Origin: Streptomyces sp. WMMC500
Lineage (GTDB): Bacteria > Actinomycetota > Actinomycetes > Streptomycetales > Streptomycetaceae
Assembly (NCBI RefSeq): GCF_027497195.1
Contig: NZ_CP114905.1
Coordinates: forward strand, 2,714,001-2,778,000
Reading direction: 5' to 3'
DNA: 64,000 nt
The translations under genes and the position numbers were made by a program. Numbering within the stretch: position 1 is the first letter of the stretch; each line of letters opens with the position of its first letter. This document shows positions 7,335 through 51,376 of this stretch, one piece after another. Under the pieces are notes generated by a model. The model was not told the origin of the DNA. It was given only the letters and a program-made list of their open reading frames with translations, and made no database searches.

Positions 7335-8723
7335 TCAGCCCACGTCGAGCCGCAGCAGATCCTCCTCCGTCTCGCGCCGCACGATCTCCCGCGCCGCGCC
7401 GTCGGCCACGGCCACGACGGGCGGGCGCAGCACGTGGTTGTAGTTGCTCGCCATGGCGCGGCAGTACGCCCCGGTGGCCGGCACCGCGAGCAGGTCGCCG
7501 ACCGCGAGGTCCGCCGGCAGGTAGGCGTCGCGCACGACGATGTCGCCGGACTCGCAGTGCTTGCCGACGACGCGGGAGAGCACCGGCTCGGCGGTGGACG
7601 CGCGGGAGGCCAGCGCCACCGAGTACTCGGCGTCGTAGAGCGCGGTGCGGATGTTGTCCGACATGCCGCCGTCCACGCTCACGTACGTGCGCAGCCCCTC
7701 CAGCTCCTTGACCGTGCCGACCTCGTACAGCGTGAAGGCGGTGGGGCCGACGATGGCGCGGCCCGGCTCGACGGACAGCCGCGGCATGGCCAGCCCGGCC
7801 GCGGTGCACTCGCGGGAGACGATGTCGCGCAGCGCCTTGGCGATCTCGTGCGGCTCGCGCGGGTCGTCCTCGGGGGTGTACGCGATGCCGAGGCCGCCGC
7901 CGAGGTCGATCTCGGGCAGCTCCACCCCGTGCTCGTCGCGGATCTCGGTGAGCAGGCCGACGACGCGGCGGGCGGAGACCTCGAAGCCGGCCATGTCGAA
8001 GATCTGCGAGCCGATGTGGCTGTGGATGCCGACCAGCTCCAGGGAGTCGAGCTTCAGCACCCGCCGTACCGCCTCGGCCGCCTGGCCGTCGGCGAGCGCG
8101 AGGCCGAACTTCTGGTCCTCGTGGGCGGTGGCGATGAACTCGTGGGTGTGGGCCTCGACGCCGACCGTCACCCGGATCTGCACCCGCTGGCGCCTGCCGA
8201 GCCGCTCGGCGATGTGCGCGACGCGGACGATCTCCTGGTACGAGTCGAGCACGATCCGCCCGACGCCGGCCTCGACGGCGCGGTGGATCTCGTCCGGGCT
8301 CTTGTTGTTGCCGTGCATCGCGATCCGCTCGGCCGGCATCCCGGCCGCCAGCGCGGTGGCCAGCTCGCCGCCGGAGCAGACGTCGAGGTTCAGCCCCTCC
8401 TCGCGCAGCCAGCGCACGACAGCGCGGGAGAGGAACGCCTTGCCGGCGTAGAAGACGTCGGCGCCCTCGAAGGCGTCGGTCCAGGCGCGGCAGCGGGCCC
8501 GGAAGTCCTCCTCGTCGAGGAAGTAGGCGGGGGTGCCGAACTCCTCGGCGAGGCGGGTCACGGGCAGCCCGCCGACGGTGACGACGCCGTCGCCGTCGCG
8601 GTCGACGGTACGGGCCCACACGCGCGGGTCGAGGTCGTTGAGGTCGGCGGGGGGTGCGGCGTAGTGCCCTTCGGGCAGCACGTCGCCGTGCCGGGGGCCG
8701 GCGGGGTGGGCGGATCGGCTCAC
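7335..8723 (-). CDS. lysA: Diaminopimelate decarboxylase
   Basis: PLP-dependent fold-III decarboxylase making L-lysine from meso-diaminopimelate. The 462-residue product has the PLP lysine in [10 protein letters not shown], the phosphate-binding [14 protein letters not shown], the conserved VEPGRAIVG, and CESGD contributing the active-site Cys and Asp. The GTG start at 8723 has AAGGAG seven or so bases upstream. Unlike most bacteria, Streptomyces places lysA directly upstream of hom-thrC, linking the two aspartate-family branches. nrtL ends 44 bases before it. Confidence 0.96.
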
Positions 8724-10457: not shown

Positions 10458-10529
10458 GCCCCCGTAGCTCAGGGGATAGAGCAACGGCCTCCGGAGCCGT
10501 GTGCGCAGGTTCGAATCCTGCCGGGGGCA
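10458..10529 (+). tRNA. tRNA-Arg (anticodon CCG)
   Basis: A complete cloverleaf can be folded: acceptor GCCCCCG pairs with CGGGGGC before discriminator A; D-arm GCTC/GAGC; anticodon stem ACGGC/GCCGT around loop CTCCGGA (anticodon CCG, reads CGG); T-arm GCAGG TTCGAAT CCTGC. The 3' CCA is not encoded. TAGGGT at 10419-10424 is a plausible -10 element. The 3' two-thirds of the gene is repeated in reverse orientation at 43.77 kb. Confidence 0.97.
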
Positions 10530-10532
10530 CCC
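10488..10532 (+). repeat. 45-bp segment of the tRNA-Arg 3' half repeated at 43771-43815
   Basis: From the anticodon loop to three bases past the discriminator, this 45-bp stretch is identical to the reverse complement of 43771-43815. tRNA 3' ends are the usual attB sites of actinobacterial integrative elements, which carry an identical attP core. The two copies are inverted, not direct. Confidence 0.9.
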
Positions 10533-41009: not shown

Positions 41010-41384
41010 CTACGCGTCGGTCGCCTTCTCCACGGGCATCCACAGCTCGTACCGGCCATGGGTCTGCTCCTCGTCGGCGTACTCGGCCAGGATCATCTCG
41101 GGACCGGGAACACTCTGGTAAGGATTCGCGGGGAACCATTCCCGGAACGCCTTCGGCCACAGTTCCTGCAGCGCGGCGGGGAAAGCTCCGGTCGACTCCA
41201 GTACGAGCCACGTGGCCGCCGGCACGTGGAGCACGTCGAAGTCCTCCGGGGCCGCCTCGGTCGTCGCGGCGGCGACGTAGTAGTCGAGCTCCGTCCCCTC
41301 CTCCCGCGACTGTGGGATCGCATCGTGCACGCTGAGCGGACCGCCCGGCTCCTGGTCGGAAAGGTCCGCGATCCGTGTCCACTG
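41010..41384 (-). pseudogene. C-terminal half of a split AraC-GyrI-type regulator
   Basis: The 123 codons from WTRIADLSDQEPGG to the stop at 41010 are the second half of a GyrI-like effector-binding domain (SREEGTELDYYVAAATTEAA, PAATWLVLESTGAFPAALQE, ELWMPVEKA). The upstream half lies at 47625-48124. The two are separated by a 6.24-kb insertion with CAGTG on each side. Translation could begin at GTG 41396 inside the inserted DNA, adding MPDNQ, but the product would lack the DNA-binding domain and half the effector domain. Confidence 0.88.
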
Positions 41385-42622
41385 GTTGTCGGGCACCCAC
41401 CCTCGCCCCCGAATGGTATGTACCTCCTGGAGGCGCTTTCACGCAGACTCGGCTACCCCGCCAGCCCAACGGAGGCCGGCCTCGCACGGCCGAGGGAGCA
41501 CAGGGCCGTGCCGGCGTTCTCCTGGGAGGCCGATCCGGTCCATCACCTCGCCCGTCTGACCCGGGCCGACCTCGACCCCGACCAGCGGTACCTGCTGGAC
41601 ACCGGCACCTACAGTCTGACCGCCCTGAGCGTCCCCCTGCCGCAACCCCGCCTCCTCGAGACCAGCCGAACGCTCGCAGGTAGCGCGGAACAGGCGGAGG
41701 CCGCGGCGATGGACCGCATGGCCCGCGGATTCGCCGACTACGCAGAAGCCCACGGCGGTGCCTCGGCCCGCACCGCCCTCACCGCGTTCCTCGCGCACGA
41801 CGTGGTTGCCTGGCTGCACGCGCCGGCCGACGACGCCGCCCGGCGCTGCATTCAGTCCGCCGCCGCGCAACTGACGGTCCTGCTCGGCGAGATGTGCGCC
41901 GACAGCGGCACCCACGCCCTCGCCCAGCACTACCACCAAACGGCCGCCTCACTGGCCGAGACAGCGACCTCCACCTCTACGTCATCGCCCTGCGAGCCCT
42001 GACCACCCACGCCGGCGAACTCGGCCACCACCGTGCCGCCTTCCCGCTCGACCGGTACGCTGCCGAACTCACCCGGGGGGACGCACCGCATCTCACCCGC
42101 GCGTACGCTCAAGCCCAGTACGCCGTTTCCGCCGCCCACACCGGTGATCGCCCCACGGCGCTCGCCGCGCTCACCGCGGCCGAGCACGCACACGCACAGG
42201 CCGACCAGGTCCCGGGCCCGTTCAGCTCCTACCCGATCGCCGCTTTGACCCACCAACGCCCTCAGGTGCACATGGCGCTGGGCGACTGGACGACGGCCAC
42301 CGCCGCCCTCCAGGCTTCGTTGCGCCGGCTCGCGGCCTCGGAGCGTCGCGCCCGCGCCCTGGGCCATGCCGACCTCGCCGCCCTCTACCTGCGGCGCGGT
42401 CACCTGGAGAAATCGCTCCGGCACTGGCACGCCTTCCTCGGCGACTTTCCGGCGCTGTGCTCCGATCGTGCAAACTGCCGTCTGGACGACATGCGCAAGC
42501 TCCTTGCCTCCTACCCGTCCCACCCCGGAGCGGCCGCCCTGCTGCGCCGCACCAGGGGCTTGGCCGGACCGGCCTTCGCAGCTCCACCGGGCGGCGGGTT
42601 CAGACGAGGCGGCGGTCGATGA
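41385..42622 (+). pseudogene. TPR-type regulator missing its helix-turn-helix and frameshifted
   Basis: From the very first base of the insertion the plus strand reads protein that resembles the middle of Streptomyces TPR regulators (YLLEALSRRLGYPASPTEAG, VHHLARLTRADLD). It lacks the N-terminal DNA-binding domain. Near 41955 a one-base change shifts the frame: HALAQHYHQTAASLAE is in one frame, DLHLYVIALRALTTHAGELG and the rest of the helical repeats in another, ending at 42622. So it was truncated on arrival and has since decayed. The 160 bases that follow carry no supported gene. Confidence 0.8.
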
Positions 42623-42788
42623 CCCCACCAGCCCCGGTCATGGAGGCCAGGCGCGCGTACATCAAGGTCGCCGATGTTCCGGCCGGGATCGCGTTCACCG
42701 GCGCCGAAAGCGATGCGGGACGTGACCTTGATGAGGGCCGCTCTCCGGACGCTTGATCGCTGCTTGCGGATGCGGTTAGCGTGAGGGA

Positions 42789-43415
42789 GTGCCGGACTCC
42801 GCGCAACTCCTCGCCTTCACGGCCGCCGCGCTGCTGCTTGCGGTCATTCCCGGCCCGGGCATGCTGTACGTCGCGGCGCGCAGTCTCAGCGGTGGTCGCA
42901 GCGTCGGTGTTCGATCTTCCGTCGGCACCGCGGTCGGCGGTACCGCCCATGTATTGGCGGCCGCGGTCGGCCTGTCGGCCATCCTCGCCACTTCGGCCAC
43001 GGCTTTCGCGGTGGTGAAGTATGTCGGCGCCGCGTACCTGTTGTGGCTGGGTCTGACGACCATCCGCAGCGCGGGCACGTCCGCCACGGCTTTCGACGAG
43101 GCCCCCGGTGGCCCCGACAAGGGTGCTCTGCGTCAGGGCGCGGTCACCGAGTTGCTCAACCCGAAGACCGCGTTGTTCTTCCTGACGTTCCTGCCGCAGT
43201 TCTGCCAGCCGGAGAACGGACCGGTTGCCCTCCAGGCCGCCGTCCTCGGCCTCATCAGCATTTCTCTCAACACCGCCATCGACATCGTCGTCGCCTTCGT
43301 CGTCGGGCCGCTCGGCCAACGGCTCATGCGGAATTTCAAGCTGTGGCGGCGGCAGCGCCAGGCGACCGGGGGCCTGCTCGTCGGACTGGGCGTCTACACC
43401 GCAGTGCGCAACTGA
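42789..43415 (+). CDS. LysE/RhtB-family amino-acid exporter
   Basis: A 208-residue membrane protein with about six helices. The family motif is AVIPGPGMLYVAARSLSGG near the N-terminus, with YVGAAYLLWLGLTTIRS and AVTELLNPKTALFFLTFLPQF. Exports amino acids or homoserine-like compounds by proton exchange. GTG 42789 overlaps its GAGG site closely. It appears intact and lies inside the insertion. Confidence 0.88.
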   Translation: MPDSAQLLAFTAAALLLAVIPGPGMLYVAARSLSGGRSVGVRSSVGTAVGGTAHVLAAAVGLSAILATSATAFAVVKYVGAAYLLWLGLTTIRSAGTSATAFDEAPGGPDKGALRQGAVTELLNPKTALFFLTFLPQFCQPENGPVALQAAVLGLISISLNTAIDIVVAFVVGPLGQRLMRNFKLWRRQRQATGGLLVGLGVYTAVRN

Positions 43416-43512
43416 GGCGCGAACGAGACAGCGAGCTGCGGGCTCATGCCCGGTGCGATGACGGCCAGAGCGTCGGGCGAGCAGGCATTGCCGACCACGC
43501 CCGTGATCCACA

Positions 43513-43536
43513 CGGTTGGTTCCCGGGAACCAACCG
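43513..43536. repeat. 24-bp perfect palindrome centred on CCCGGG
   Basis: The half-site CGGTTGGTTCCC is followed immediately by its exact complement. No loop separates the arms, so it is a dyad rather than a terminator; a protein-binding or resolution site is possible. Confidence 0.6.
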
Positions 43537-43770
43537 GGATGGTGCGCCGGCCAGATGTGCGTGGACCGGAGCTGGAGATCCACTGTGACCGGACGATCAA
43601 CCAAGCTACATGCCGCGTCTCGCTGACGAGCGACACCATCAATGCCGTCTCACAAGCAGCTCACGAGACGATTTCCGGCTCACCGAGCTGGAAGAACGCG
43701 ACGAACCGCAGGTCACACGACACCAAGGAGAAGAAGATGGATGGCCGCATGGATCAGGCGACCATCTGCG

Positions 43771-43815
43771 GGGTGCCCCCGGCAGGATTCGAACCTGCGC
43801 ACACGGCTCCGGAGG
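43771..43815 (-). repeat. 45-bp copy of the tRNA-Arg(CCG) 3' part, probable att-site remnant
   Basis: On the minus strand this is identical to 10488-10532: anticodon loop, anticodon 3' stem, T-arm, acceptor 3' strand and CCC. The D-arm and acceptor 5' strand are absent, so no tRNA can form. That extent is what integrative elements carry as attP in tRNA genes. Confidence 0.88.
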
Positions 43816-44006
43816 ACTCTTGCCTTTCCCGCGTTCTCGCAGGTCGAAAGCCTGCCTGACGCCTTGTCAGGGATGCGGTCCCGTGCATATCCCGTGACCA
43901 GGAAAACTGCTGTTTTAACCGATATATCCATTTGGATTCTTCTCTGCTGGCGCGCCGGGATCATCCGCCTTGCCCTCGCGCGTCAGCCGATCCGGTCGGC
44001 GGTGAG

Positions 44007-44970
44007 CTAGGGGTAGGAGGCCAGGACGTTCGTTACGCCTTCGCATAGTCTCCGGGCTGGTGGTTGATCTCCTGCTCCGCTGTGGGGTCGGTGGTAGTTG
44101 TCATGGATGTTCCAGATGCCGAGAGCCTCACGGCGCTGGTCTTCGGGCAGCCGGGTTCGGGCGTAGAGGAATCTTCGGCGATGATCCGGTTATAGCGCTC
44201 CACTTTGCCGTTGTGGCGAGGCGTGTAGGGGTTATGCGCTGGTGACGTGTGCCGAACAGGGCCCGGGAGAACACGCTGGAGCGGTAGCAGGCGCCGTTGT
44301 CTGTGACGATGCGTTCGATCCGGGTGATGCCATGGGCTTCGAACCAGGCTCTGGCTCGATGCAGGAACGCAATGGCGGTGGCGGCCTTCTCGTCGGGCAA
44401 GGCTTCGGTGTAGGCGAGCCGGCTGAATCCGTCGACGGCGGAGTGAAGGTAGACGTAGCCGCCGCGTTCCCTCTTATTCTTGCGACGCTCGACGGCCTTA
44501 GCCTGGCGGCTGCCGCGTCCGTGGGCCCGCCAGCCACCGCCGTCCGGTATCCGGCCGACCTTCTTGACGTCGATGTGGACAATATGGCCAGGCCAGCGGG
44601 CGGTGATCTTCCGTGGCTCCCGGTTCGTGTCCCCGGTGGGGTCGATGAACCTGCGGCGGTGCAGCCCCAGCGCGAGCAGATGACGCGACACCGTGCGGCG
44701 ACTGATCGAGATGCCCTCGGTCTGAAGCTCGAAGGCGATCCGCGTCGCCGACCACTTCGCGGACCGGCGCAGCACATCGATCCTGGCGACCACATCGGCG
44801 TTGGTGGCGGTCGGCTGGCGTCGTGGTGCTGAGGAACGGTCCAGCAGACCGAGTTCGCCGTGCTGGCGGTAGCGGTTCACCCACTTCGATGCGCAGGCGC
44901 GGGAAATGCCCATCTCGGCAGCGACGTGAGTGATCGGGCGGCTCTCGCATCGTTCGATGAGGCGACGGCG
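44007..44970 (-). pseudogene. IS481-family transposase, multiply frameshifted
   Basis: Starting in the helix-turn-helix (AAEMGISRACASKWVNRYRQ, then RSSAPRRQPTATNADVVARI) the frame is intact through the first DDE residues (HIVHIDVKKVGRIPDGGG, ERIVTDNGACYRSS). It then breaks twice by single missing bases: near 44236 (RITP to YTPRHNGKVERYNRI) and near 44185 (AE to FLYARTRLPEDQR), ending NVLASYP at 44007. The N-terminal residues and terminal repeats are not recognisable. It replaces the end of an oxidoreductase gene. Confidence 0.85.
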
Positions 44971-44974
44971 CGGG

Positions 44975-45656
44975 GATGGTCGGCGATGGAGACATAGCGG
45001 CCGCCGGGGGCGAGGGCGGCGGACGCGTCGGTGCCGGCGGTGTCGAGGATGACCGGGTAGCGGCCGCGGGGCAGGTCGTCCGGGCGGTGCCAGACCTCTT
45101 CCGCGCCGAGCTCGAGGGTGGCCGGTTCGTGTTCGGACCGGGAGACCAGGGCGTCGACGTGGGCGCCGGCGAGGTGGGCGAGTTGGACGGTCAGACCGCC
45201 GACCGCCCCGGCGGCGCCGATGACCAGGATGCGCTCGCCGGCCGCCGTTCTTGCGCTGCGCAGCGCCTGCAGGGCGGTCGTCCCTGTCAGAGGCAGGGAC
45301 GCAGAATCGGCCAGCGCGATGCTGCTCGGCGCGGGGGCGAGCAGGTGGCCGGGCAGGGTGACCAGGTCGGACCAGGTGCCGCGGCCGGTGGCGATCTGCG
45401 CGGACATCGCAATCACCGGGGCGCCCCCCTCTTGGGCGGTGTCGTTGGCGGCGACGACGCGGCCGGCCAGGTCCCGGCCGAGGGTGGCCGGCAGCCGCGG
45501 TCCGACCTGCCAGGCGCGGGTCTTCCAGTCCACCGGGTTGAGGCTGCTGGCCGCCGCGCGGATGATGACCTCGCCCGGGGCGAGGGCGGGTTCCGCTATT
45601 TCGCGGACGATCAGGGCGTCGGGGCCGCCGTGGCGGTCGATCTGGACCGCACGCAT
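44975..45656 (-). pseudogene. Quinone-oxidoreductase-type medium-chain reductase, 3' end removed by IS481
   Basis: About 227 residues of an NADPH:quinone reductase are present: MRAVQIDRHGGPDALIVREI, SSLNPVDWKTRAW, LGRDLAGRVVAA, SLPLTGTTALQAL, the NADPH loop VIGAAGAVGGLTVQLAHLAG, and DTAGTDASAALAPGGRYVS. Homology stops near SIAD and the frame runs into IS481 sequence, closing at 44877. About 80 C-terminal residues of the fold are lost, so it is probably inactive. It lies 38 bases after the MFS gene and was likely its operon partner. Confidence 0.8.
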
Positions 45657-45693
45657 GATCAAAGGGGTCCTTCCAAAGTTGAGGATGTGGTGA

Positions 45694-46878
45694 TCAAGCA
45701 GCGGTGGGAACCGCCGGGTTGTCCGGGTGCTCGCCGGTCCGTGTGCGGGGCAGGACCAGGTAGGTCAGGGCCAGGCCGAGCAGGCTCAGCGCCGCCCCGG
45801 CCAGGCCGGTGAAGCGCAGCGCCCCGGCGGCCACGATGAGCCCGCCCAGGGCGGAGCCGGCGGCGACGCCGAGATTGAACGCGCCGACGTTGACGGCGGT
45901 GGCCAGGTTCGGGGCGGCCCCGGCGTGGCGCATGATCAGCCCCTGCAGCGGGGCGATCGTGGCGGTGGCGAGGAGCCCCAGGACCAGGACGGCAAGCACC
46001 GCGGTGGGCTGCCATGCGACGGCGAGCGGGATCGCGGCGAGCACGCCGGTCAGCCCGCCAAACACCCCGCGCACGGTCTGGGACATGGCCTTGTCGGTGA
46101 GCCTGCCGGCGATCAGGTTGCCCAGGAAGCTGCCGGCGCCGTAGGCGAGCAGCAGGGCGGACACGGCGGTCGGGGAGAAGTCCGCGACGCGGGTGAGCAG
46201 CGGTGTGATGTAGGTGTAGACGACGGCGACGCCGGAGAAGCCGACCGCGGTGGTGGCGACCGCCAGCAGCACCGGCTTTTGCAGCATCACCCCGATCTCG
46301 TCCCGCGGGCGGGCGGCCGGCGCCTGCTGCCTGGGCAGCACCGGCGCCAGCAGCGCGATGGCGACCAGGGTGAGCGCGGTGAGCACCCAGAACGGGGCGC
46401 GCCACCCGGCAGCATGCCCCAGCAGCGACCCCAGCGGCACCCCGAGCAACGTGGCCACGGTGAAGCCGGACGCCACGGCGGCGATCGCGGAGCCGGTCTT
46501 GTCCTCGTCCACCAGACCGGTGGCCATCACCAACGCCAGCGCCAGGAATGCGGCGTGGCTGAGCGAGGAGACCACCCGCCCGGCCAGCAGCACCGTGAAC
46601 GTCGGCGCCAGGGCGCTCACCGCGCTGCCCGCGGCGAACAGCAGCATCAGCCCGATCGCCAGACCTTTACGGGGCAGGCGTGCGGTCAGCATGGTCACCA
46701 CCGGTCCGCCGATCACCACGCCGAGCGCGTACGCGGTCACCGCCTGCCCGGCGGTGCCCTGCGACACCTCCAGATCCGCACCGACCTCGGGCAGCAGGCC
46801 CGCGACCAGGTATTCCGACGTACCGACAACGAAGACGCTCGCGCACAAGGCGGCGAGCCTGGCAAAGGTCTTGTCCAT
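45694..46878 (-). CDS. MFS transporter, 12-helix DHA1 (sugar-efflux/chloramphenicol-resistance) type
   Basis: A 394-residue transporter: FVVGTSEYLVAGLLPEVG in helix 1, LTARLPRKGLAIGLM in loop 2-3, VSSLSHAAFLALALVMATGL in helix 4, VATLLGVPLGSLLGHAAGWR in helix 5. Close in style to the Cmx/AraJ export group. Divergent from a MerR regulator with a MerR-type promoter between them. With TSS near 46880 the transcript would be leaderless or nearly so. Intact, within the insertion. Confidence 0.9.
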   Translation of the reverse strand: MDKTFARLAALCASVFVVGTSEYLVAGLLPEVGADLEVSQGTAGQAVTAYALGVVIGGPVVTMLTARLPRKGLAIGLMLLFAAGSAVSALAPTFTVLLAGRVVSSLSHAAFLALALVMATGLVDEDKTGSAIAAVASGFTVATLLGVPLGSLLGHAAGWRAPFWVLTALTLVAIALLAPVLPRQQAPAARPRDEIGVMLQKPVLLAVATTAVGFSGVAVVYTYITPLLTRVADFSPTAVSALLLAYGAGSFLGNLIAGRLTDKAMSQTVRGVFGGLTGVLAAIPLAVAWQPTAVLAVLVLGLLATATIAPLQGLIMRHAGAAPNLATAVNVGAFNLGVAAGSALGGLIVAAGALRFTGLAGAALSLLGLALTYLVLPRTRTGEHPDNPAVPTAA

Positions 46879-46886
46879 ACCCCGGA

Positions 46887-46917
46887 CGCTAAAGTCTCAC
46901 ATGGATGTTAGAGTCAA
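46887..46917 (-). promoter_or_regulatory. MerR-type promoter of the MFS gene
   Basis: On the minus strand TTGACT (46917-46912) and TTAGCG (46892-46887) are separated by 19 bases, the over-long spacer typical of MerR-activated promoters. The spacer holds the imperfect dyad CTCACATGGATGTTAG (46896-46911). Confidence 0.6.
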
Positions 46918-46958
46918 GTAGCACTGCCCAGCCTCAAGGCACCCGCGAGGAGGATCAC

Positions 46959-47372
46959 GTGCGGATCGGTGAGCTGTCCCGCAGGACCGGCGTCCACGAA
47001 CGGCTGCTGCGCTACTACGAAGAGCAGCACCTGCTCTCCCCCGAGCGACGGCCCAGCGGCTACCGCGAATACCGCGAGGACGACGTCACGACCGTGCGCC
47101 GCATCCGCAGCCTCCTCGCCGCCGGCCTCTCCACCGCCACCATCGCGACGATCCTGCCCTGCCTGCGCGAGGAGGAGGAGCGCCTGGTGCCCACCTGCGC
47201 CAACCTCCTCGCCGACCTGCTCTCCGAACGCAAACGGATCTCCCAGGCCATCACCGATCTGCAGACCTCCCGTTCCGCGCTCGACGACGTCATCGCCGCT
47301 GCACCCACAGACGTCGCCGAACGCGCCGACATCGCCGCAACGACTCACGCCACACCCACGACGAGGGCGTGA
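46959..47372 (+). CDS. MerR-family transcriptional activator
   Basis: A 137-residue protein: winged helix RIGELSRRTGVHERLLRYYE (2-21), SPERRPSGYREYREDDVTTV, then a coiled-coil dimerisation helix (about 80-118). GTG 46959 has AGGAGG at ideal distance. No cysteine pair typical of metal sensors; one Cys in ILPCLREEEE and one in PTCANLL could still sense thiol stress. Probably activates the divergent MFS/oxidoreductase operon. Confidence 0.9.
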   Translation: MRIGELSRRTGVHERLLRYYEEQHLLSPERRPSGYREYREDDVTTVRRIRSLLAAGLSTATIATILPCLREEEERLVPTCANLLADLLSERKRISQAITDLQTSRSALDDVIAAAPTDVAERADIAATTHATPTTRA

Positions 47373-47624
47373 CGCCTGCGTACAGAGCTCCCGCCTATGG
47401 GCAGGAGCATTGGTGGCTAACCGCCGTCAACAACATGCTGGCCAGCAACAACTGGGTGAACTCCCGCGCGACGAAGCAGCCGGGGCCGGTGGTGAGGGCG
47501 GGCTCGAAGCGTTCTCGGCATACGGCGATGCGGTCGGCGCGGTGGATGGTGACGGGGCTCCTACGTCCTGGCTCGCTGTGGTGCCTTGCGAGATCGGGTG
47601 CGCATATGCTCGATGCATGAGTTT
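47373..47624. other. Right end of the insertion, no supported gene
   Basis: An 83-codon open frame (47369-47620) fills most of it (TAVNNMLASNNWVNSRATKQ), without a ribosome site of note or a recognised family. The last 25 bases before the CACTG repeat show no inverted match to the left end. Confidence 0.3.
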
Positions 47625-48124
47625 CACTGTTCCTCACTGATCTGTTCCACGAATGCGGCACCGGCAGGGTTCACCCCCTCGTGGATGAGCGGTATTCGGG
47701 TCCGCAGGCCCACGAGCGAGAACGAGTTCTTCTCGACGATGCGGTAATCCATGGCCGTGCTCCCTTCGATCGTGAGGGTGAACGTGAGCTTCGGCTGCGA
47801 CCGGAGAACGACGCCGGGCCGCCGTGCGCCCGCGGGACCGACCCCGTGCACGGTTCGAAACGCACGCGAGAACGCATCGGCGGATCCGTAGCCGAACCGG
47901 ACGGCCAGGTCCTGCAACGGCTCGGCCCCGGACACGACGGACGCTGCCGCAATGGTCATGCGACGCCGCCGCACGTACTCGGACAGCGGCATTCCCGCCA
48001 ACGCCGAGAACATCCGCCGGAAGTGATGCTCCGACATCAACGCGATGCGACTCGCGCGAGCCACATCGACGTCGCCTTCCAACTGCTGTTCCACGAGGGC
48101 CATCGCTTCGTTCAGCCGCTCCAT
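47625..48124 (-). pseudogene. N-terminal half of the split AraC-GyrI-type regulator
   Basis: Residues 1-166: two AraC helix-turn-helix motifs (VARASRIALMSEHHFRRMFS and LQDLAVRFGYGSADAFSRAF) and the first part of the effector domain (MDYRIVEKNSFSLVGLRTR, IPLIHEGVNPAGAAFVEQIS). The reading stops with TGA exactly where the insertion begins, leaving ...SEEQ. ATG 48124 is the start. The fragment could still bind DNA but without a complete sensor. Its missing half is at 41010-41384. Confidence 0.88.
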
Positions 48125-48397
48125 GCTCACCTTCCTTTCGCATTCGACGCTACGAAAAGCACGCCCGGGCATGTCCGACGATCCGTGCGCGGATATGTCG
48201 TGCGCATCAGGAGACTGGCGCGCGACACGGCCTCTCGAGCGTCACCTGTAAGGACGTGATCCGCCGCTGCTCCGACGGCCGGCGTGCCGCGCCCCGTGCG
48301 GTGTCCGAGCCATGAGTGGCTGCCCCGCCGCTCCGCTGCCGCGCAGGTCGGATGCCGTGATCGAGCCCATGGCAGCGCCGGAGCGCGCCGCAAATTC

Positions 48398-48413
48398 TGG
48401 ACTTGCAGGTCCA
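48398..48413. promoter_or_regulatory. TetR-type operator before the SDR gene
   Basis: TGGACTTGCAGGTCCA, an imperfect palindrome of the same pattern as the site before the tetR gene (49993-50008). The surrounding 406 bases between the AraC fragment and the SDR gene hold no other supported feature. Confidence 0.65.
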
Positions 48414-48530
48414 ATTTCCGCGTCGCACAGTGGGACTCCGCCCTGGCCGCCCAGGGCCCGACCGGTCGAGACGCGGCATGCGGTTCGGCCGGGCGTGTGC
48501 GTAGCTGTGAACGAAGCGAGGGAGTGGACC

Positions 48531-49295
48531 ATGTCGACACGCCTTGAGGGCAAGACCGCCCTGGTGACCGGAGCAACCAGCAACATCGGGCGGGCCGTCG
48601 CGGACGCGTTCGCGGCTGAGGGGGCGCATGTCGCCGTCTCGGGCCGCAGCGCCGGGCGCGGTGAGGAGGTCGTCGGCGCCATCCGCGCGCGCGGTGGCCG
48701 GGCCGACTTCGTGCGGGCGGCCCTGGACGGCTCCGCGGCCGCCTCGCAGGCACTGGCCCGGGAGGCGACGGGGGTCCTCGGGGGCCGCATCGACATCCTG
48801 GTCAACAGTGCGGGGATCTATCCCGGAGACAGCACGGTGGCCACCGACGAGAAGACCTTCGACGAGGTCTACGCGATCAACGTGAAGGCCCCGTTCTTCC
48901 TCACCGCGGCCGTCGCACCCGTCATGGCACAGGCCGGCGGCGGAGTGATCATCAACCTGGGCTCCTGGATCGCCCGCCTGGGTGTTCCGGCCGGCGCCCT
49001 CTACAGCTCCACCAAGGGAGCCGTCGAAACCCTGACCCGGGCCTGGGCCGCGGAGTTCGGGCCGCAGGGCGTACGCGTCAACGCGATCTCCCCGGGCGTC
49101 GTGCAGACACCCGTCCCGGGTGAGACCGATGCCGTGGAGGCCATGATGAAGGGCACCCCGGCGGGGCGGATGGGAACCCCCGAGGAGATCGCGAACGCCG
49201 CCGTGTACCTCGCGGGTGACGAGTCGGCTTTCGTGCACGGCGTCGTGCTCGACGTCGACGGGGGCCGCACCACCGTCGCCGTCATGGGCGGCTGA
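48531..49295 (+). CDS. SDR-family oxidoreductase
   Basis: A 254-residue classical SDR: TGATSNIGRAVADAFAAEG, NSAGIYPGDSTV, catalytic Ser in INLGSWIARLG, Tyr-Lys in YSSTKGAVETL, and the C-terminal VHGVVLDVDGG. NADPH preference is suggested by GRSAGRGEEV after strand 2. ATG 48531 has GGGAG upstream. Convergent-side neighbour is a TetR regulator; the two share an operator sequence, so this is its likely target. Confidence 0.9.
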   Translation: MSTRLEGKTALVTGATSNIGRAVADAFAAEGAHVAVSGRSAGRGEEVVGAIRARGGRADFVRAALDGSAAASQALAREATGVLGGRIDILVNSAGIYPGDSTVATDEKTFDEVYAINVKAPFFLTAAVAPVMAQAGGGVIINLGSWIARLGVPAGALYSSTKGAVETLTRAWAAEFGPQGVRVNAISPGVVQTPVPGETDAVEAMMKGTPAGRMGTPEEIANAAVYLAGDESAFVHGVVLDVDGGRTTVAVMGG

Positions 49296-49366
49296 AACAC
49301 GGCACCGCGCGGCGGCGTCCCGCCACGGCGGCCCGACCGGCAGGTGCGTGAACCGGCCGGGAGGGG

Positions 49367-49975
49367 TCACGGTGCCGCGCTTTCCAGGCGGCGCAGGTCC
49401 GTGATCCCCTGGTCGAGAGCCACGCGCAGGTGGGTGGACTGACCCGTCGACAGCAGGATCGACACACCCCCTTGAATCGCGGCCAGCAGCGCGGCGGCCC
49501 TGGCGTCGACATCGAGATCGGCGGGAAGCCGGCCGGCCGCCTGCAGCGACCGGATGCCCGCCGCCAGGCTCTCCTGCCAGCGGCGCATCAACTCGACCAC
49601 GATCGCCCGCGCCCCGGGGGTCGAGCGCCCGACCTGGAGAAACAGCGACCCGAGCGGACACTCGTCCCCCTGGGTCTCGTAGCGGTTGATCACGACGTCC
49701 CGCCACCGCTCCCAGGCCTCCCAGGAGTCCAGACGGCCCAGATACGGCTGCTGGTCCTCCAGAACCTGATCCGCCTCGAACCGGGCCACCGTGAGCAGCA
49801 GTTCGTCCTTCCCGGCCGGGAAGTAGTGGAAGAGCTGACTCTTGCTGGTGCGCGTCCGCACCATGACGTCCTCCAGCGTCGCCGAGGAGACACCCTTCTC
49901 CCGCAGCACCGCCGCCGCCCCCTCGACGATCCGGCTCCGCGTCGCCAGCCCCTTCGCCGTCAGTTCCCCGCGCAT
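49367..49975 (-). CDS. TetR-family regulator (LmrA/YxaF-like)
   Basis: A 202-residue protein: helix-turn-helix SSATLEDVMVRTRTSKSQLFHYF, C-terminal LmrA/YxaF-type domain with ECPLGSLFLQVGRSTPGARA and LLAAIQGGVSILLSTGQST. Family members bind TAGACC-like palindromes and respond to flavonoids or drugs. Here TGGAC...GTCCA occurs upstream of this gene and upstream of the SDR gene, consistent with control of both. Confidence 0.88.
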   Translation of the reverse strand: MRGELTAKGLATRSRIVEGAAAVLREKGVSSATLEDVMVRTRTSKSQLFHYFPAGKDELLLTVARFEADQVLEDQQPYLGRLDSWEAWERWRDVVINRYETQGDECPLGSLFLQVGRSTPGARAIVVELMRRWQESLAAGIRSLQAAGRLPADLDVDARAAALLAAIQGGVSILLSTGQSTHLRVALDQGITDLRRLESAAP

Positions 49976-49992
49976 GAGCTGCCTCCCCGGAC

Positions 49993-50008
49993 TGGACTGC
50001 CGAGTCCA
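49993..50008. promoter_or_regulatory. TetR-type operator before the tetR gene
   Basis: TGGACTGCCGAGTCCA: six-base arms TGGACT/AGTCCA around GCCG, 18 bases upstream of the tetR start. Confidence 0.7.
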
Positions 50009-50034
50009 TCTTTACCAGACCGGCGTCCGCGGGG

Positions 50035-50571
50035 TCAGGCGGCGGAGGTTTCCGCGGTGGCGAGCAGCACCGCGCGTCCGAGGGTGTGGCCGGCCATGGT
50101 GAAGCCGAGGACGGCCGGGGTGGCGTCGGCCGGGACGCCTAGGGAGGCGACGTCCAGGGCGTGCACCACGACGAAGTAGCGGTGCGGGCCGTCCCCGGCC
50201 GGCGGGGCGGCGCCGGTGTAGCGGGCCGCGCGGGCGTCGTTGGGCAACTGGTAGGCGCCGTCCGGCAGGTGTGAGCCGGTGTCGTCCCCGGCGCCCTCGG
50301 GGAGTTCGGTGCAGGTGGCGGGGATGTCGGCGACCGCCCAGTGCCAGAACCCGGACCCGGTGGGGGCGTCGGGGTCGTAGACGGTGACGGCGTAGCTCTC
50401 GGTGCCGTCCGGGGCGCCGTTCCAGGACAACTGCGGGGACAGGTCCTCACCGCCGGGCAGGGCGGAGGCGTGCTGCCCGGGCGGCCAGGCGGCGCCGTCG
50501 GCGACGGTGGCGCTGGTGACGGTGAAGGACGCCGCCTCGGGGAGACGGGCGAAGGGGTCGTTGACGTTCAC
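50035..50571 (-). CDS. YbhB/YbcL-family (PEBP) Raf-kinase-inhibitor-like protein
   Basis: A 178-residue phosphatidylethanolamine-binding-like fold: GGEDLSPQLSWNGAPDGTES, VTVYDPDAPTGSGFWHWAVA, PHRYFVVVHALDV. Bacterial function unknown. GTG 50571 is preferred because GAGGAG lies seven bases upstream; ATG 50586, used if extended, has none. Divergent from a GntR regulator, with a 14-base palindrome between. Confidence 0.88.
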   Translation of the reverse strand: MNVNDPFARLPEAASFTVTSATVADGAAWPPGQHASALPGGEDLSPQLSWNGAPDGTESYAVTVYDPDAPTGSGFWHWAVADIPATCTELPEGAGDDTGSHLPDGAYQLPNDARAARYTGAAPPAGDGPHRYFVVVHALDVASLGVPADATPAVLGFTMAGHTLGRAVLLATAETSAA

Positions 50572-50644
50572 GGTGATGCTCCTCATCAGGGCTGTGTGCC
50601 GGGGCGGCGGCGCGGACGGCCGCCGATGAATCGACAGTAACATA

Positions 50645-50658
50645 GAAAATCGATTTTC
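50645..50658. promoter_or_regulatory. Perfect palindrome GAAAATCGATTTTC
   Basis: An AT-rich 14-base dyad in the promoter region shared by the PEBP and GntR genes, a likely operator for the latter. Confidence 0.6.
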
Positions 50659-50683
50659 CTAGAGATCGTCTATGCTGGCGTCC

Positions 50684-51376
50684 ATGACTGACACGCCTCA
50701 CCGCCCCGCCGCCCCCGGGAAGCGGATGCTCTCCGAGCAGGTCTACGCGCACCTGCAGGACGCGATCATGCGCGGGGGCTACGCCCCCGGTGACGCCCTC
50801 AAACCGCAGGATCTCGCCCGGGAGCACGGCGTGAGCCTGGCCGTCACGCGCGAGGCGCTCGTGCGGCTGGTCGGCGAGGGTCTCGCCGACCGGCTGCCCA
50901 ACCGCGGGTTCGCGGTCCCGTCCTTCTCCGACCACCGCTGGCAGGAGATCGCGGAAGCCCGCCGGACCATCGAACCGGTCGTCCTGCGCATGTCCGTCGA
51001 GCGCGGCGACGTCGACTGGGAGGCCCGCGTACGGGCCGCCCACCACCGGCTGGTCCGCACTCCGCCGTACGTGCCGGAGGAGGGCGAGTACTACACCGCC
51101 GCGTGGGCCGAGGCGCACAGGGTCTTCCACCGCACGTTGCTGGAGGGGTGCGGCAACCGCGCACTGCTGGAGACCTTCGACCGGCTGTGGACCGCGAGCG
51201 AGCTGGCCCGCCGCTGGGCGGCGCACCGCACCCCCGGCCGGGACGGCGTCGAGGAACACCGCAGGCTGGAGGAGGCGGCGCTGGCCCGCGACGCCGACAC
51301 CGCGAGTGCGGTCCTGTTTCAGCACCTCTCGCTGACCGCGGCCGCCCTGACCGACGATTCCGGCCCGGCCGCCTAG
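50684..51376 (+). CDS. GntR-family regulator (FadR subfamily)
   Basis: A 230-residue protein: winged helix (SEQVYAHLQDAIMRGGYAPG, QDLAREHGVSLAVTREALVR) and an all-helical FCD-like domain with FHRTLLEGCGNRALLE. No ribosome site precedes ATG 50684 or ATG 50672, so the mRNA is probably leaderless. Likely controls the divergent PEBP gene through the palindrome at 50645. The 227 bases after it hold no supported gene. Confidence 0.85.
   Translation: MTDTPHRPAAPGKRMLSEQVYAHLQDAIMRGGYAPGDALKPQDLAREHGVSLAVTREALVRLVGEGLADRLPNRGFAVPSFSDHRWQEIAEARRTIEPVVLRMSVERGDVDWEARVRAAHHRLVRTPPYVPEEGEYYTAAWAEAHRVFHRTLLEGCGNRALLETFDRLWTASELARRWAAHRTPGRDGVEEHRRLEEAALARDADTASAVLFQHLSLTAAALTDDSGPAA

Follow-up and report, generated by a model that had tools for sequence, protein, structure and literature searches.

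Results

A split AraC-GyrI gene

The window analyzed here, a 64,000-nucleotide stretch of the genome of Streptomyces sp. WMMC500 (contig NZ_CP114905.1, positions 2,714,001 to 2,778,000), contains a regulator gene of the AraC-GyrI type that lies in two pieces on the minus strand, with 6,240 bp between them (41385-47624). The features of the locus are listed in Table 1; positions are those of the window unless given as genome positions. The N-terminal half ends in the residues ...EQISEEQ followed by TGA, and the C-terminal half starts with WTRIADLSDQEP. Profile matches to HTH_18 in the N-terminal half (2e-16) and to the GyrI-like domain in the C-terminal half (2.6e-14) place the two domains in the order of an AraC helix-turn-helix (HTH) followed by a GyrI-like domain. 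The pentamer CAGTG is present at both breaks in the same codon phase, and fusion of the halves over one copy of it yields a protein of 289 residues with no gap. A scan of genome contigs with the N-terminal half found 193 relatives, 80 of which were kept for comparison of the join. Seventy-nine of these were gapless over six residues on either side of the join, and the 80th (L106) had no single alignment across it. A preliminary description of the window had proposed that an AraC gene was split by a 6.24-kb insertion with exact restoration of the frame and with CAGTG at both break points in the same codon phase. The split is real, and these features of it were all borne out by the comparison.

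Table 1. Features of the split AraC-GyrI locus and its insert (window positions).
Feature	Position	Strand	Remarks
N-terminal half of AraC-GyrI gene	47625-48124	-	HTH and initial part of GyrI domain; TGA directly after CAGTG
CAGTG, left break	47625-47629	-	Same codon phase as right-break copy
Orphan scrap A	47451-47624	-	Coding-like frame by eye (third codon positions); no credible homolog
Damaged IS481-type cargo transposon	44012-47450		Left end TGTTGC at 47450; right end beside CCTAGC (44006-44011)
MerR-family regulator	46905-47372	+	
MFS exporter	45694-46878	-	
Oxidoreductase, ADH_N/zinc-type dehydrogenase family	44972-45662	-	3' end replaced at 44972/44971 by transposase remnant
IS481-family transposase remnant	44012-44971	-	Start lost relative to sister copy
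Stretch leading into tRNA piece (190 bp)	43816-44005	-	72% to genome 2,109,322-2,109,522
tRNA-Arg(CCG) 3' part	43771-43815	-	45 bp identical to window 10488-10532, inverted; intact gene 10458-10531
Final codons, probable large serine-integrase gene	43572-43770	+	Cut at 43572
LysE-family exporter	42789-43415	+	
XRE/TPR-like regulator remnant	41380-42622	+	Upstream part gone; frameshifts near 41400 and 41990; conserved Trp codon 41383-41385
CAGTG, right break	41380-41384	-	Plus strand CACTG, running on into XRE/TPR-like gene as H-W-L-S-G
C-terminal half of AraC-GyrI gene	41010-41384	-	GyrI-like domain, from profile position 46

At the site of the join, tryptophan was found in seven of the 80 relatives and the hexamer CAGTGG in three (L043, Mycolicibacterium; L044, Millisia; L045, Gordonia). 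These three are among the five closest relatives, the other two of which (L046 and L047) differ at the site. The AraC-GyrI regulators of Mycolicibacterium, Millisia, Gordonia, Nesterenkonia and an actinomycete metagenome-assembled genome have 75.7-82.3% protein identity to the rejoined gene, are gapless at the join (the alignment of the Gordonia gene spans residues 1-226 only) and, unlike the window copy, are uninterrupted. Of the 392 genomes searched in the same genus, 248 have a match to window 47560-48300, with 73% DNA identity at best, and no close uninterrupted copy was found among the 392; our comparison therefore rests on other genera. The preliminary description had proposed a check for an uninterrupted gene with a single CAGTG in related Streptomyces lacking the segment. 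Plasmid relatives of the N-terminal half, in 1,073 records, were all below 60% identity. None of the genes that flank the split gene in the window was detected at E ≤ 1e-15 beside L043-L047 and L049 (with little flank in L045 and L046). In the genus-wide flank search, the stretches 48395-50009 and 50032-51000 matched at separate places (e.g. in G117, G063, G245 and G011), so that it yielded no conserved neighbourhood for the reading of an empty site.

The C-terminal half has 70-76% identity to four relatives, which is near the 71-84% found among those relatives themselves, and relaxed constraint on this half is therefore not clearly evident. The gene may have been split recently. It was also observed that, at 76-82% protein identity, the AraC-GyrI gene is closer to genes from Mycobacteriales and Nesterenkonia than to the best match found in its own genus (73% DNA identity). 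Horizontal acquisition of the gene, prior to the split, is therefore possible.

Composition of the insert

Read on the minus strand from the left break, the insert consists of scrap A, the transposon block, a 190-bp stretch, a piece of a tRNA-Arg gene, the tail of an integrase gene, a LysE gene and the remnant of an XRE/TPR-like gene. The truncated TPR-like gene, the attachment-like tRNA sequence and the export genes that the preliminary description named as cargo were thus all identified. What was implied there to be one discrete 6.24-kb element at a CAGTG target does not look like one mobile element, being made up of truncated pieces and having a right end that cuts through the XRE/TPR-like gene; it reads as a mosaic of gene scraps and mobile-element pieces.

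The transposon, which is just one component of the insert, was assigned to the IS481 type based on matches of its transposase to the profiles rve, HTH_32 and LZ_Tnp_IS481 and on plasmid matches annotated as IS481 family transposase. When compared with its own genome, the block was 99.6% identical over 2,286 bp (9 mismatches) to positions 6,960,693-6,962,978 and 98.0% identical over 965 positions to 6,963,247-6,964,208. A sister copy lies there (L039 5697-9204) that starts with TGTTGCTGG and ends with CCTACA. Together with the perfect direct repeats TCTAGG on its two sides (L039 5691-5696 and 9205-9210), it occupies 3.5 kb (L039 5691-9210; genome 6,960,690-6,964,209) and contains the MerR gene, the MFS exporter gene, an internally deleted oxidoreductase gene and the transposase gene. 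The window copy has no matching target repeats (CCCAGT on the left, CCTAGC on the right). The two copies are also damaged differently: the sister is without ~0.26 kb of the oxidoreductase gene at the 15-bp repeat CTCGCCCACCTCGCC (L039 ~7965-7980, judged by eye against the intact gene of L124 and the window copy), and the joint between oxidoreductase and transposase in the window copy, at 44972/44971, has by eye no shared base. Because of these different deletions, a simple duplication of the 6.96-Mb locus was rejected as an account of the insert. A related unit with 83% identity was found in genome G069 (L124).

The unit has features in common with TnRErm46 of Rhodococcus equi, described in the pertinent parts of PMC6794481 as an IS481-family cargo transposon with NCTAGN repeats. 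Shared with it are the combination of an IS481 transposase with cargo, direct repeats of the form NCTAGN (TCTAGG in the sister) and an end starting TGTTG. Compared with the printed TnRErm46 inverted repeat, the left end agrees at 15 of 20 bases, a score that 3 of 100,000 shuffles reached. The sister's own two ends show a weak likeness to each other (27 of 1,000 shuffles score as well). Unlike TnRErm46 as it is described in those parts of the paper, the present unit has a cargo of MerR regulator, MFS exporter and oxidoreductase, and the window copy has lost part of its transposase and is without matching target repeats.

With a 3.4-kb block in the insert that is 98-99.6% identical to another locus, the split could in principle be an assembly artefact caused by the repeated transposon. 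We regard this as highly improbable, however, given that the repeated block includes neither of the AraC breakpoints and that the host genome (8.61 Mb, 73% G+C) is one contig rated 99.97% complete.

Between the transposon and the LysE gene is further debris of mobile DNA. The 190-bp stretch that leads into the tRNA piece may be the end of a mobile element, and the tRNA piece together with the integrase tail (43572-43815) has 90% DNA identity to L133. The integrase is probably of the large serine type, a designation derived from reading the translation of L133 rather than from a profile search. The LysE gene, sought beside the XRE/TPR-like gene, was present in no examined locus besides that of the window. 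Three side observations concern this region. The identical 45-bp copies of tRNA-Arg(CCG) are inverted and 33 kb apart, which makes them a possible substrate for inversion. A perfect palindrome of 24 bp (43513-43536), possibly an operator, lies between the integrase remnant and LysE. Lastly, in genome G047 (L196 1-2950) a CRISPR-like repeat array, read from repeated motifs in translations, adjoins a match to the tRNA-Arg fragment.

It is conceivable that the insert grew in place, with a smaller first insertion that broke the gene and a later arrival of the transposon and further pieces. The sister of the inserted transposon, with its intact target repeats, and the attachment-type tRNA sequence in the insert would fit such a history. 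However, the target repeats of the window copy do not match, and the transposon therefore did not simply hop into its present flanks; moreover, the integrase gene that adjoins the tRNA fragment has been cut as well. Accretion of this kind thus seems rather unlikely.

The preliminary description had also suggested a search of the segment for copies elsewhere. Parts of the insert do recur, in its own genome at 6.96 Mb, 1.28 Mb and 2.11 Mb and in the tRNA-Arg gene of the window, although near-identity is limited to the copies of the transposon block and of the 45-bp tRNA part. In the own genome, neither end of the insert was among the 24 matches with E ≤ 0.001 (40 of 1,016 candidates being scored), and in 199 genomes neither end was covered among the matches listed. 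No plasmid or phage record covered 80% of the insert, and an origin of the whole insert from either was rejected; the best matches to its pieces were the MerR-MFS-oxidoreductase unit and the IS481 gene. The reading of the whole insert as one discrete element with terminal inverted repeats was likewise rejected, given that its ends were not paired by any of the 25 longest inverted repeats (out of 165), in agreement with the earlier remark that no such repeats are visible.

The joints of the insert

At its right end, the insert cuts through a gene. We refer to this gene as XRE/TPR-like based on a 66%-identical plasmid stretch annotated as a helix-turn-helix transcriptional regulator and on our reading of its homologs, and the name is meant as a putative one. 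A protein query had matches at E ≤ 0.001 in all 392 genomes of the genus, its own included, and 19 loci from other genomes (L154-L172) were compared at the right joint. The motif W-x-x-G precedes the TPR-like part in every one of the 19, and in the seven that were inspected upstream (L154-L160) the frame runs on beyond that tryptophan, through a part that is missing in the window. Across the right break the plus strand reads CAC TGG TTG TCG GGC, or H-W-L-S-G, in which the Trp codon takes the last two bases of CACTG. In the homologs the codon before the tryptophan and the Trp codon itself are CACTGG (8 of 19), CGCTGG (7), CGGTGG (2) or CAGTGG (2), so that the homologs have only four kinds of pentamer (CACTG, CGCTG, CGGTG and CAGTG) out of 1,024 possible. 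The number of bases common to homolog and target side was two in 4 loci, three in 7, five in 4 and six in 4. The TPR gene does not, then, start at the first inserted base as initially described, since the homology reaches 2-6 bases into CAGTG. Because conserved codons of the cut gene reach into the repeat, CAGTG probably is donor sequence, partly or wholly, and it is better read as microhomology at the joint than as a target duplication.

This bears directly on transposition of an undescribed element that lacks terminal inverted repeats and makes a 5-bp CAGTG target duplication. Such an event would account for an exact 5-bp direct repeat at both ends of the insert with no loss of target, and if the two joints were blunt, a total of five shared bases would arise by chance with a probability of ~0.005. 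Against it are the absence of any inverted repeat, among the 25 longest, that would pair the ends, the failure of the ends to recur among the own-genome matches, the position of the right end inside a gene whose codons enter the repeat, and the fact that the internal transposase remnant belongs to a unit whose ends lie far from the breaks. We therefore consider it unlikely. Direct copies of CAGTG on both sides are also what is expected of Campbell-type integration at a 5-bp core, in which a circular molecule would have entered by site-specific or short-homology recombination at CAGTG. However, the attachment-type tRNA sequence occupies the middle of the insert rather than its ends, and closure of the circle would put scrap A before the XRE/TPR-like gene, where its frames are, by eye, unlike the upstream part of the homologs. 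Integration of a circle is thus very unlikely.

Discussion

Origin of the insert

The explanation that we favor, and hold to be probable though far from certain, is that end joining during the repair of a break captured the 6.24-kb fragment into the AraC-GyrI gene. A double-strand break would have occurred in the intact gene beside CAGTG and would have been sealed by end joining, either of the Ku/LigD type (non-homologous end joining) or mediated by microhomology, with capture of one linear fragment. Mobile-element debris may already have made up a patchwork fragment before entry, or several pieces may have come together during the one event. The XRE/TPR-like gene of the fragment and the target would have had a short run within CACTG in common at the right joint, and at the left joint the fragment would have been joined directly. 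If no target base was lost, the frame would be exactly restorable, with CAGTG on both sides and without a transposase; restoration of the frame would accordingly need no special mechanism. Were CACTG wholly or partly donor sequence, little or no target duplication would be needed; otherwise, fill-in of up to 5 nt at a staggered break would produce the same picture, still without a transposase. We infer the break, the enzymes, capture in a single event and loss of the regulator's function.

The genome encodes candidates for the enzymes. A match to Ku is present at 6,940,671-6,941,222 and one to an ATP-dependent ligase at 6,943,011, 2.3 kb apart from start to start, with further ATP-dependent ligase matches at 447,083 and 546,035. 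The ligase at 6,943,011 is presumably LigD-like, as judged from its family match and its neighbourhood to Ku.

How the joints formed can be weighed roughly. Under pure target duplication, the fit of the repeat to the donor codons would be luck, with a chance of 1 in 16 for TG and, for all five bases of the pentamer, of 4 in 1,024. If end joining had no preference for shared bases, a total of five would also be rare (0.005). End joining favours short shared runs. Microhomologies at repair scars are mentioned for Streptomyces ambofaciens in the relevant sections of PMC5869714. This weighing favours end joining but does not settle the matter.

Several points weigh against capture by end joining. 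Identical flanks would result from a target duplication of 5 bp or from fill-in of 5 nt at a staggered break. The homologs closest to the XRE/TPR-like gene (L154-L157, 50-53% identity) have CGCTGG, which predicts three shared bases rather than five, and those with five or six shared bases are only 34-40% identical; in addition, a Pfam search of the two XRE/TPR-like frames gave no family at E ≤ 0.01. At the left joint, scrap A offers no homolog for comparison: none was found in plasmids, the best match in another genome among 121 of the genus had an E of 0.003 and was not credible, 36 pattern matches in viral contigs yielded none that was confirmed, and the best E in phages was 0.1. Neither the donor fragment nor an empty site within the species was found. 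Finally, the transposon block, which is more than half of the insert, need not be foreign because a near-identical copy exists in the same genome.

Events of this kind have been reported in S. ambofaciens, where, according to the relevant sections of PMC5869714, five insertions of 30 bp to 18.8 kb, all of them own-genome DNA, were recovered at healed I-SceI breaks, and KuA and ligases C and/or D are implicated in illegitimate repair. Microhomology or fill-in was seen at some of the S. ambofaciens scars described there. The cases differ in that the S. ambofaciens breaks were made by I-SceI, whereas a break here is our reading of the locus, and in that our insert is only partly matched by own-genome copies. 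The authors speculate in those sections that exogenous DNA may enter in the same way, which they did not themselves observe.

Biological significance

In kind, the splitting of the AraC-GyrI gene is ordinary; we view it as an instructive case of a known kind of accident and not as a new system. A neat 5-bp direct repeat together with perfect restoration of the frame may arise without a transposase, and one way to tell such a case from transposition is to see whether a gene that is cut at the boundary has codons that carry on into the repeat. The locus also points to an IS481-type cargo transposon that bears a MerR-type regulator and an exporter. Tentatively, we suggest that end joining served here as a route of horizontal transfer, by which an already chimeric, at least partly foreign and exporter-bearing fragment was stitched in at a break with microhomology of up to 5-6 bases, a possibility that we consider open to considerable doubt. 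As such, the locus is a candidate natural example of break repair bringing new genes.

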